Source of the DNA: Thermovirga lienii DSM 17291
Lineage (GTDB): Bacteria; Synergistota; Synergistia; Synergistales; Thermovirgaceae
Assembly: GCA_000233775.1 (NCBI GenBank)
Contig: CP003096.1
Coordinates: 1,514,501-1,578,500 of the forward strand
DNA length: 64,000 nucleotides
Reading direction: 5' to 3'
Below are positions 7,558 through 22,850 of the stretch, in pieces. Positions within the stretch are counted from its first letter, which is position 1, and each line of letters starts with the position of its first letter. The notes beneath the pieces are model-generated. The model did not search any database. It worked only from the letters and a program-made list of their open reading frames with translations, and was not told the DNA's origin. The translations under genes and the position numbers were made by a program.

Positions 7558-7586
7558 TTGACTGTACCGCAAAAAAGGGTTATTCT
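7558..7586 (+). promoter_or_regulatory. Sigma-70-type promoter of the structured RNA / proC leader
   Basis: TTGACT at 7558-7563 and TATTCT at 7581-7586 with a 17-base spacer. The predicted start is about 7592-7594, at the first hairpin of the structured RNA. Confidence 0.65.
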
Positions 7587-7592
7587 ACTCGC

Positions 7593-7788
7593 TAAATATA
7601 TTAACAAGTTTAGCAGGTGAAAAGTATGGCTCGTACTTTCATAATCAATACCAACCCTAGCCCCTGCCCTAGCGTGGTACCTGGAAGGTGTGTCTTCCGG
7701 GAAGGGTTGGTCTTGTCTTGAGCCAGGTTACTTAATTTCAGGTACAGGACAAGGGCCGTCGGTCTCGGAAGACCGACGGCCCTTTTTA
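7593..7788 (+). ncRNA. Structured RNA of about 195 nt ending in an intrinsic terminator (proC leader or independent sRNA)
   Basis: Many exact complementary segments lie between a good promoter and a strong terminator. They include a 5' hairpin (7591-7596 with 7609-7614), 7621-7626 with 7634-7639, and 7613-7617 with 7663-7667. There is also a 9-bp match, 7650-7658 with 7703-7711, and a 7-bp match, 7677-7683 with 7739-7745, that crosses it and would make a pseudoknot. Others are 7681-7687 with 7694-7700, which competes with the last one, and 7712-7717 with 7748-7753. The terminator is a 15-bp stem, 7751-7765 with 7770-7784, followed by T's. The proC ribosome-binding site starts about 10 bases later. 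It matches no riboswitch class I know. Confidence 0.6.
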
Positions 7789-7811
7789 TTTCAAAAAGGA
7801 GGAGGATAACC

Positions 7812-8639
7812 ATGTCAGGAAATAAGACCACCGTAACCATAATAGGTGCCGGCATAATAGGAGGAGCCATAGCAGAGGCACTCACTCCCCATTTCAATGT
7901 CATAGCCACAAGAAGAAAGGTACATAAACTAAACGGCCTTGAAGAAAAAGGCGTGAAGGTCTCACAAGACAACAGGGACGCAGCCAGAAAAGGAGACGTA
8001 ATAATTTTATCCGTGAAACCTTCCCAGGTGATCAGCGTCTTAAAGGAAATAAAGGAAGAAGCAAAAGGCAAGGTCATCATCTCCTTCGCCGCAGCCATAC
8101 CTACGGAACTAATGAAGAAAGTAGTCTCAGGGAGTAAAATCGTAAGGGCCATGACGAACACCGCCGTCAAGGTGAGAAAGGGATACACTCTTTATACCCA
8201 TTCTGACGATCTCAACGATGAAGAGCTCTCTCTTCTATGTACCATTTTCAGCAAGCTAGGCGAAAAACAGAGAGTAGATGAGGCTCACATGGATGTTTTA
8301 ACCGCCATGTCAGGCTCTGGACCTGCATATATTTTCACCGTTGTCGAGGCCATGATTTATGGAGCCTTAAGGGAAGGTCTTCCTCGCGCACTGGCCCTCC
8401 AAGCAGCGGCACACACAGCCATAGGAGCATCCTGTCTTCTTCTGGAAAGCGGCAAACATCCAGCGGAATTAAGGGACATGGTATTAACGCCTGGAGGAGT
8501 AACCATAGACGGCATCTATGAGCTAGAGGAAAGTCGCATCCGCACTGCCTTCATGAAGGCCATAAGTGCTGCATCCTCCAGAGCAAGAGTACTTTCCGAA
8601 GAAGTCAGAAGAAAGGCAGAAGGAGAAATAGAGGAATGA
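7812..8639 (+). CDS. proC: Pyrroline-5-carboxylate reductase
   Basis: Last step of proline synthesis: reduces 1-pyrroline-5-carboxylate to L-proline with NAD(P)H. The 275 residues are of normal length. The N-terminal Rossmann loop GAGIIGGAIAEAL is at about 12-24. The C-terminal helical dimerisation domain carries the family signature MSGSGPAYIFTVVEAM with GLPRALALQAA, and the catalytic-region stretch RDMVLTPGGVTIDGIYELEE. The ATG follows AAAGGAGGAGG. It lies directly behind the terminator of the structured RNA, so transcription may depend on read-through. No proA or proB is adjacent. Confidence 0.96.
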   Translation: MSGNKTTVTIIGAGIIGGAIAEALTPHFNVIATRRKVHKLNGLEEKGVKVSQDNRDAARKGDVIILSVKPSQVISVLKEIKEEAKGKVIISFAAAIPTELMKKVVSGSKIVRAMTNTAVKVRKGYTLYTHSDDLNDEELSLLCTIFSKLGEKQRVDEAHMDVLTAMSGSGPAYIFTVVEAMIYGALREGLPRALALQAAAHTAIGASCLLLESGKHPAELRDMVLTPGGVTIDGIYELEESRIRTAFMKAISAASSRARVLSEEVRRKAEGEIEE

Positions 8640-11348: not shown

Positions 11349-12662
11349 CTATATCTTAGTAGGGAACACCGTCTGATCTTCAACTTCTTTGGTCAAAGCA
11401 TCAAGTGCAACCCCTACTCTGTGGTATCTAAGCTTCCATTCTTCTTCGGGGCTCATTTCTGGATCACCTAGAGGATAAGGTACAGAGACAGTCTGAACCA
11501 TCTTGTTAACGCCAACAGACTTGGCCACATCTAAGAGGTTACAAAGTACCACTATGGGGATACCTGCCTTTTCTATTTCTTTTGCCATCGTTGCACCGCA
11601 ACGAGTACAGGTTCCTCAGGTTGCCACCAAAAGAACTCCATCGACACCCGCTTCCTTGAGTTCCGCTGCTATTTCTCTACCAAACTTGGCAGCATACGCC
11701 TGCGTAGTCCCCGTCCCAACGGTCACGTAGTAGTAGTCGTGAAGTTTGCCAATTTTGCCTTCCTTTTCGTAAGCCCTCATGGCATCTACCGGCATGCCCC
11801 TATCAGGAACTTCGCATATAGCCTCTGGGTCATATCCTGCATGTATGGTCTTGAACTTGCCCTTGGGCAGATGGTCCAATCCAGCAATGTTGTACTTGCC
11901 CCACTTGGTTGCGGAGGCCGTCTGAATCCTGTCTGGGTTGTCGAAAGGAACTACACCACTGGACCCAACAAGAGCTATAGTTGCCTTGCTCAAGTCCTTT
12001 ATAGGAGGAGCTACAGGAACTTTTTCCCTCTTGGGAATTGGCAATTCTGTTTTGAAAGGCTCGCCCTTGAGCTTCTTGAGAAGCATGTCCACCGCTCTGT
12101 CAGCAGCCTGTATCCCCTCAGGATGGAATATCTCCCTGCGAATTCCCCTTGGGAAATAACCTTCTATCTCCGCTGGTAGGAGTTCTTCATTTCTAGCTAT
12201 CTTTTGTGCAAAGGAGGCCATTTTCTGCAGATCCTCCCTCATGAAAGTGGCCTTTCGCCCACCGCGGAAAATGTACACATCCTTGTGGAACATCTCTACC
12301 CCAGGGTTTTCCTCGTTCATCGAGGTGATAACCGGTACTCCGAAGGTCTCCTTTACTGCTTTACATACGGTTCCGCACCCTACACCGTAACGTCCCGCCA
12401 TGAACGCAGGCCCAGCAAAGAAGATATCGAACTCTTGCCCCTTCAGCCAATCAATTATCTCTTTCAAAGCCTCTTCTGTGTTGCTTGCTATGTAGTTATC
12501 TCCACACACGATGGTATGAGTAACTTCCACGTCATCCATCATCTCGTTGAGCATTTTGGAACATCCCACTAACTCATCATGGAAGGTCGGCCTGTAATCC
12601 GCGGCATCTTCCCCTCCCACCTGACCGAAGAACTGGTTAATGTAATGGATTGCCTTCAACAT
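11349..12662 (-). CDS. grdH: Selenoprotein: Grd reductase component B, beta subunit (betaine-type, GrdH-like)
   Basis: Substrate-specific selenoprotein that takes the substrate and hands a carboxymethyl group to selenoprotein A. It has 437 residues including selenocysteine at codon 349, encoded by TGA at 11618-11616. The context is LLVAT-U-GTCTRCGAT, the family's UxxCxxC motif. Twelve bases after the TGA a perfect 6-bp hairpin with a GGT loop (11603-11589) fits a bacterial SECIS. Read without Sec, the gene would look like two fragments. The choice of GrdH over GrdB or GrdF rests on the downstream BCCT transporter and on the uncleaved type of alpha subunit upstream. Confidence 0.9.
11589..11603 (-). 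promoter_or_regulatory. Putative SECIS hairpin of the grdH-like gene
   Basis: On the minus strand CGTTGC-GGT-GCAACG forms a 6-bp stem with a 3-base loop, 12 bases after the selenocysteine TGA. Position and GG-containing loop fit bacterial SECIS elements read by SelB. Confidence 0.6.
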
Positions 12663-22564: not shown

Positions 22565-22850
22565 AATCAAACGAGTGGTATGAACCAAATAACGCAAAGG
22601 CGATGAAGTGGGGCGCTTTAGCACACCAGGATTCCACAGAGAGAGTTCCTCATCGGCTGAGAGGGAACTCGGATCCGTGCGAAAGCCCAAAACCCATGGA
22701 GCTGGGACGGAAAGGGGATATCATCCCTGGAGTACGTCGCCCGGGTGGACTCCGTCAAAGGTCCCAGAGAGGAATGCCACAGGCATTCAATTAGGGTGGT
22801 ACCGCGGGCTAACAAATAGGCTCGTCCCTTAGGGGACGGGCCTATTTTTA
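22565..22850 (+). promoter_or_regulatory. T-box riboswitch in front of lysW
   Basis: The T-box core AGGGTGGTACCGCGG is at 22793-22807 and is followed by an intrinsic terminator, 22814-22828 with 22833-22847 (15 pairs, one G-T), and T's. Upstream, a stem I is visible: GAGTTCC (22663) pairs with GGAACTC across the distal loop GCTGAGAGG, below it GGATTCC/GGATCC and GCAC/GTGC. Uncharged tRNA would favour the antiterminator and lysW operon expression. The specifier falls near 22676-22688 (GTGCGAAAGC); AAA (Lys) and CGN (Arg) are both possible and I cannot decide from sequence alone. Confidence 0.88.

Follow-up and report, generated by a model that had tools for sequence, protein, structure and literature searches.

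The region in front of proC, the gene of pyrroline-5-carboxylate reductase, in Thermovirga lienii is very probably a ribosome-mediated transcription attenuator, in which a short leader peptide reads the charging of tRNA-Pro and thereby controls the downstream gene. The attenuation mechanism itself is already known, and its classical examples are the leader peptides of the trp, his, leu, ilv and phe operons (the his case is summarised in PMC9413887). The model is built on the sequence elements of the region, on their conservation among relatives, on covariation in the terminator and on computed alternative folds, and from these we infer translation of the leader, stalling of ribosomes on it and a response of read-through to proline. 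It would put a proline-sensing attenuator on a gene of proline biosynthesis, and bring leader-peptide attenuation into the Synergistota, amino-acid fermenters that form a deep phylum. In the literature accessible without subscription, we found no report of a proline leader on a proline-biosynthesis gene, nor of leader attenuators in Synergistota.

The window analysed here is a stretch of 64,000 nucleotides from the T. lienii genome, and all positions refer to it unless stated otherwise (Table 1). The promoter and the 15-bp terminator just before the ribosome-binding site of proC, both of which had been pointed out in an initial annotation of this DNA, were found again by scans. What that annotation overlooked is an open reading frame lying between them, which has its own Shine-Dalgarno sequence and contains four Pro codons; it starts with ATG and runs for 31 codons to a UGA at 7719-7721. 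Thus, a short frame with a ribosome-binding site stands upstream of the gene supposed to be regulated. The identity of the latter is clear, as its product scores 240.8 bits with TIGR00112 against an equivalog cut-off of 196.75 and also matches PF14748. The upstream neighbour, encoding a D-aminoacyl-tRNA deacylase (PF04414), is on the minus strand and divergent from proC, and a scan of the window sequence found no promoter-like site between the terminator and the proC start. Therefore, read-through past the terminator looks obligatory for expression of proC.

Table 1. Elements of the proC leader region of T. lienii (window positions)
Feature	Position	Strand	Basis
Promoter: -35 TTGACT, 17-nt spacer, -10 TATTCT	7558..7586	+	Scan
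Shine-Dalgarno of leader peptide, AGCAGGTG, 6 nt 5′ of ATG	7612..7619	+	Sequence; SD-like sequence also 5′ of homologous leaders
Leader peptide ORF, MARTFIINTNPSPCPSVVPGRCVFREGLVLS*	7626..7721	+	ORF list; Pro-rich homologous leaders in 14 genomes
Candidate sensor Pro codons: CCT 7656-7658, CCC 7662-7664, CCT 7668-7670, CCT 7680-7682	7656..7682	+	Pro kept in relatives
Predicted segment 1:2 helix 7650-7658/7703-7711 around hairpin 7680-7687/7694-7701 (anti-antiterminator, untranslated state)	7650..7711	+	Computed fold
Predicted antiterminator: 7696-7702/7763-7769 and 7708-7720/7745-7758	7696..7769	+	Computed fold, stall at Pro codon
Intrinsic terminator hairpin, 15 bp, then T-rich tract 7785-7791	7751..7784	+	Scan, covariation
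Shine-Dalgarno of proC, AGGAGGAGG	7797..7805	+	Sequence
proC, pyrroline-5-carboxylate reductase, regulated gene	7812..8639	+	TIGR00112, PF14748

Is such a frame convincing as a proline sensor? Pro occupies four of nine successive codons, spaced as PxPxPxxxP with no Pro-Pro pair. For a single run of nine codons the chance of this is 5e-4 at 4.6% Pro, and equally clustered Pro codons occur in 8 of the 353 short frames of the window that are preceded by a Shine-Dalgarno sequence (about 2%). Taken alone, the clustering is suggestive only and is unconvincing as a sensor.

Relatives were therefore examined by collecting their proC genes together with the upstream DNA, each read in the orientation of the gene. 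Pro-rich leaders, with three to eight Pro each, are present in 14 Synergistales genomes, and in 12 of them, the window genome counted, the leader is directly before proC in the same order of promoter, leader, terminator and gene. These 12 leaders are from four families of the order, and all have a TTGAC-type -35 element, a -10 hexamer exactly 17 nt on, 28-36 codons and, at the end, a GC-rich terminator followed by a run of T. Leaders L005, L020 and L033 require a GTG or TTG start. The remaining two came from a covariance search: one is at a contig edge, and downstream of the other lies a group II intron. In genome G006, such an intron (RF02001; L075:1-80, minus strand) starts shortly after the terminator of the proC leader and so parts leader from gene. 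A same-genus leader reads MAYVTRNTNPCPCPTVMPGRCIFRGGLVLS, and further peptides before proC are MQVSVRRTTRPNPCIPPRSRKSLSREGTVLS, MAGCFRTVHTINPCVPPVVGHRSARSGPPVS, MILNRRFDMALPCSPRPVSKHPGGGRPCPGA, MLSRIGMASFVNPLPSPGVLCPPDRFPFAPSAQP and MAQHLRRLPSPCLPRPQAIFARGWSVLS. Over all Pro leaders there are 69 Pro, 2 Tyr and 24 Cys in 442 residues. Pro is retained while the flanking peptide changes, and its codon varies among CCT, CCC, CCG and CCA. The same-genus comparison shows a 3-nt in-frame deletion and a pS of 0.41 vs a pN of 0.18, a clear excess of synonymous change in this one pair that other pairs do not show. It is also to be noted that a Cys codon is located in or beside the sensor block in nearly every Pro leader of the 12 genomes (NPSPCP, NPCVPP, LPCSPRP). 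No leader was found before proC in other families and more distant relatives, including contigs labelled WOR-3, and there was no match to the leader in phages. In the WOR-3 contigs (L046, L048 and L049), a close proC homologue is placed directly 3′ of a tRNA gene whose anticodon is GTC by eye.

How could the charging of tRNA-Pro be read out by such an arrangement? Transcription would start near 7593, and a ribosome would begin the 31-codon leader at 7626. When Pro-tRNA is plentiful, the ribosome would get to the UGA and cover 7708-7720, so that the terminator at 7751-7784 would form and transcription would end before proC. When Pro-tRNA is short, the ribosome would stall on the Pro codons at 7656-7682 and disrupt the helix 7650-7658/7703-7711; 7696-7720 would then be free to pair with 7745-7769, which holds the 5′ arm of the terminator, and with no terminator formed proC would be transcribed. 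Even if the leader is not translated at all, the 1:2 helix is predicted to hold segment 2, and the terminator would form.

Computed folds are in line with this scheme. The minimum free energy (MFE) of the 196-nt RNA is -77.9 kcal/mol vs a mean of -55.6 for dinucleotide shuffles (z -4.5), much of it owed to the terminator, and the fold contains both the helix 7650-7658/7703-7711 and a hairpin at 7680-7687/7694-7701, as the initial annotation had proposed in its helix and competing hairpin. With a ribosome stalled at a Pro codon the computed MFE structure of the window leader is the antiterminator, with -29.5 kcal/mol, and with a ribosome at the stop codon it is the terminator only; the 5′ strand of the antiterminator extends into the stop codon. 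In each leader the RNA 3′ of a Pro-stalled ribosome can, by computation, pair much of the 5′ half of the terminator with upstream sequence. The antiterminator is thus exclusive with the terminator in the computed folds only, and its precise pairing is only weakly conserved: the register varies among relatives, and when the nine-leader alignment is tested for one fixed helix of 13 bp, covariation is not above control. An MFE shuffle test of the antiterminator fold gave a combined p of about 4e-4 for 12 leaders, which is moderate support as the genomes are related and not independent, and a duplex test of segment 2 against the terminator 5′ half was weak, with a combined p of 0.018.

The intrinsic terminator before the gene, on the other hand, is clearly supported by covariation. 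On the nine-leader alignment 6 of 13 tested pairs have compensatory changes, 99% of cells are paired, and none of 500 shuffles reaches this. Covariation in homologous regions was the test by which the initial annotation would have its structured RNA judged, and in the nine relatives the terminator alone covaries. RNAalifold keeps the terminator, one 4-bp stem without compensatory changes and little else; the outer helix 7650-7658/7703-7711 pairs in 73% of cells, only marginally above controls. As for the potential pseudoknot 7677-7683/7739-7745, its complementary segments (GTACCTG/CAGGTAC) do exist in the window, but they pair in 48% of cells across the nine relatives with compensatory changes not above control, and we do not retain it.

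Further insight came from leaders before other genes. A covariance model (R1) was made from the nine proC leaders and run against 183 genomes from the order. It finds the same layout with Tyr codons, such as MGKALFNNNYYYYYYAYPRTYDASGFLVFSSE and MKKHNATVHSYYYAYAYSRCIASGQMVFSAKSGQA, each having a Shine-Dalgarno sequence, a TTGACA promoter and a terminator, and a second model (R2) widened the set of Tyr leaders to about 20 genomes, where they precede a sodium:solute symporter of the SSF family (PF00474) and hold in total 34 Pro and 108 Tyr. T. lienii itself has such a Tyr-rich leader, MAATRFFALDYYYYLYFTPHRTDSGEVGYFVKAG*, with a Shine-Dalgarno sequence and a strong terminator, lying between about 300 and 120 bases 5′ of the start of its symporter (contig C1 of this genome, G000, about 1662940-1663120; locus L141). 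Both models also find MGKALLNKNFYFYWFFTFPRSFDASGCLAFFAK before aroE, with Phe, Tyr and Trp codons. Thus, the codons of the leader fit in each case the amino acid that the gene behind it makes or uses, namely Pro for proC, Tyr for the symporter and Phe/Tyr/Trp for aroE. From this codon-swapped set the substrate of the SSF symporter is predicted to be tyrosine or an aromatic relative. In two genomes (G040 and G033), the unit of Pro leader and proC adjoins the unit of Tyr leader and symporter. It is possible, though we propose it only tentatively, that Synergistota have a single modular family of attenuators in which the leader-terminator cassette was copied and only its sensor codons were replaced, the adjoining Pro and Tyr cassettes around proC being a snapshot of such copying; part of the R1 and R2 matches rests on similar terminators, and that the cassette as a whole goes back to one ancestor is not proven. 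Two side observations belong here. A leader before aroE (shikimate dehydrogenase), MGKALLNKNFYFYWFFTFPRSFDASG(C/F)LAFFAK, is Phe-rich with Tyr and Trp (L094/L140, L139), and at L128 and L130 a different SSF-family transporter stands behind a Tyr leader that closely resembles those of the main group, suggesting that either the leader has moved or the gene has been exchanged.

Does the region need a peptide-reading ribosome at all? Strong alternative structures, a terminator and crossing complementarity, all present in the window, are what one would expect of a metabolite riboswitch, in which a pseudoknotted aptamer for, e.g., proline or a precursor is joined to the terminator as expression platform. 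The initial annotation had indeed left the choice between riboswitch and attenuator. The attenuator half of it stands, with mutually exclusive pairings and a conditional terminator before proC, and the riboswitch half is not supported: no aptamer-like fold outside the terminator is conserved in the nine relatives by RNAalifold or by helix covariation against controls, and the Rfam search which had been suggested as a check gave no match to a known class, with nothing credible at the gathering threshold or up to an E-value of 5 and sub-threshold matches far below the family cut-offs. What is conserved upstream is instead an open frame, and its codons suit the gene that follows, with Tyr before the symporter. 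A riboswitch is, therefore, extremely unlikely. The annotation's other suggestion was a free small RNA such as a 6S-like one. A small RNA of this or another kind, ended by the terminator while proC is expressed by leakage, would profit from the promoter and strong terminator, which should yield a transcript of about 195 nt; attenuation, however, likewise predicts a terminated leader RNA of that size. Moreover, Rfam gives no match to the 6S family in the proC leader, what the relatives share 5′ of the terminator is an open frame that holds Pro codons, no other promoter-like site is available for proC, the element stays attached to proC in four families (f1, f5, f7 and f8) of the order, and its codon-swapped copies precede other amino-acid genes. 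A free-standing small RNA is extremely unlikely. Sensing of tRNA is favoured over both, since a match between leader codons and downstream gene is unexpected for an aptamer or a small RNA.

Another way to use the same leader is that the nascent peptide, or a general slowdown of translation such as EF-P-dependent pausing at Pro-Pro or a shortage concerning Cys-tRNA, is sensed rather than charging of Pro-tRNA. Several relatives do have a Pro-Pro pair (NPCVPP), and the Cys in or beside the sensor block recurs in nearly all leaders. However, the window leader is without Pro-Pro, the peptide around the prolines is not conserved, and the Tyr and Phe versions before other amino-acid genes point to tRNA charging. 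This alternative is very unlikely, and we retain the attenuator that reads tRNA-Pro charging.

Why should proC alone be under such control? No match above cut-off to proA or proB was obtained in the T. lienii genome, while an ornithine aminotransferase exceeds its family cut-off with 564.9 bits (G000:C2:25902-27086, L107, on a contig of 31,872 bases) and five genes of the ornithine-cyclodeaminase family are above theirs. As proA and proB are missing and the aminotransferase is present, proline is probably made from ornithine, with the aminotransferase as the probable supplier of P5C for ProC and ProC as the last dedicated step, which would explain control of proC alone.

Compared with the trp- and his-type attenuators, the proC leader is alike in its short frame preceded by a Shine-Dalgarno sequence and rich in the codon of the pathway amino acid, and in a predicted antiterminator that overlaps an intrinsic terminator, mutually exclusive with it, before a biosynthetic gene. 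It differs in its Pro codons, in its Synergistota host and in spacing, since his and trp codons stand in a run. Leader frames rich in Pro codons are known from mgtL and mgtP of Salmonella mgtA and mgtCBR, where they are reported to couple Pro-tRNA charging to downstream transcription (PMC3641672); unlike the proC leader, they control Mg2+ transport and virulence genes rather than proline synthesis, and their sequence and RNA are unrelated to it. Intergenic regions of T. lienii have been surveyed before, with candidate Phe/Tyr-codon uORFs reported before shikimate genes (PMC6429828). As described there, these resemble the aroE leaders found here; the main text of that paper, its supplementary table apart, names no proC or proline element.

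T-boxes (RF00230) also sense tRNA charging and act by antitermination. The proC leader gives no covariance match to this family, and the T-boxes of the genome lie elsewhere only, so both devices coexist in one organism. In the window, a T-box-like RNA is seen at 22594-22832 (plus strand; 79.2 bits, below the gathering score of 93 bits) before a gene cluster of the lysX/argC type. A SECIS_4 element of 61.8 bits is located at 11578-11615 on the minus strand, just 3′ of a frame on that strand (11616-12662) whose product resembles a selenoprotein reductase.
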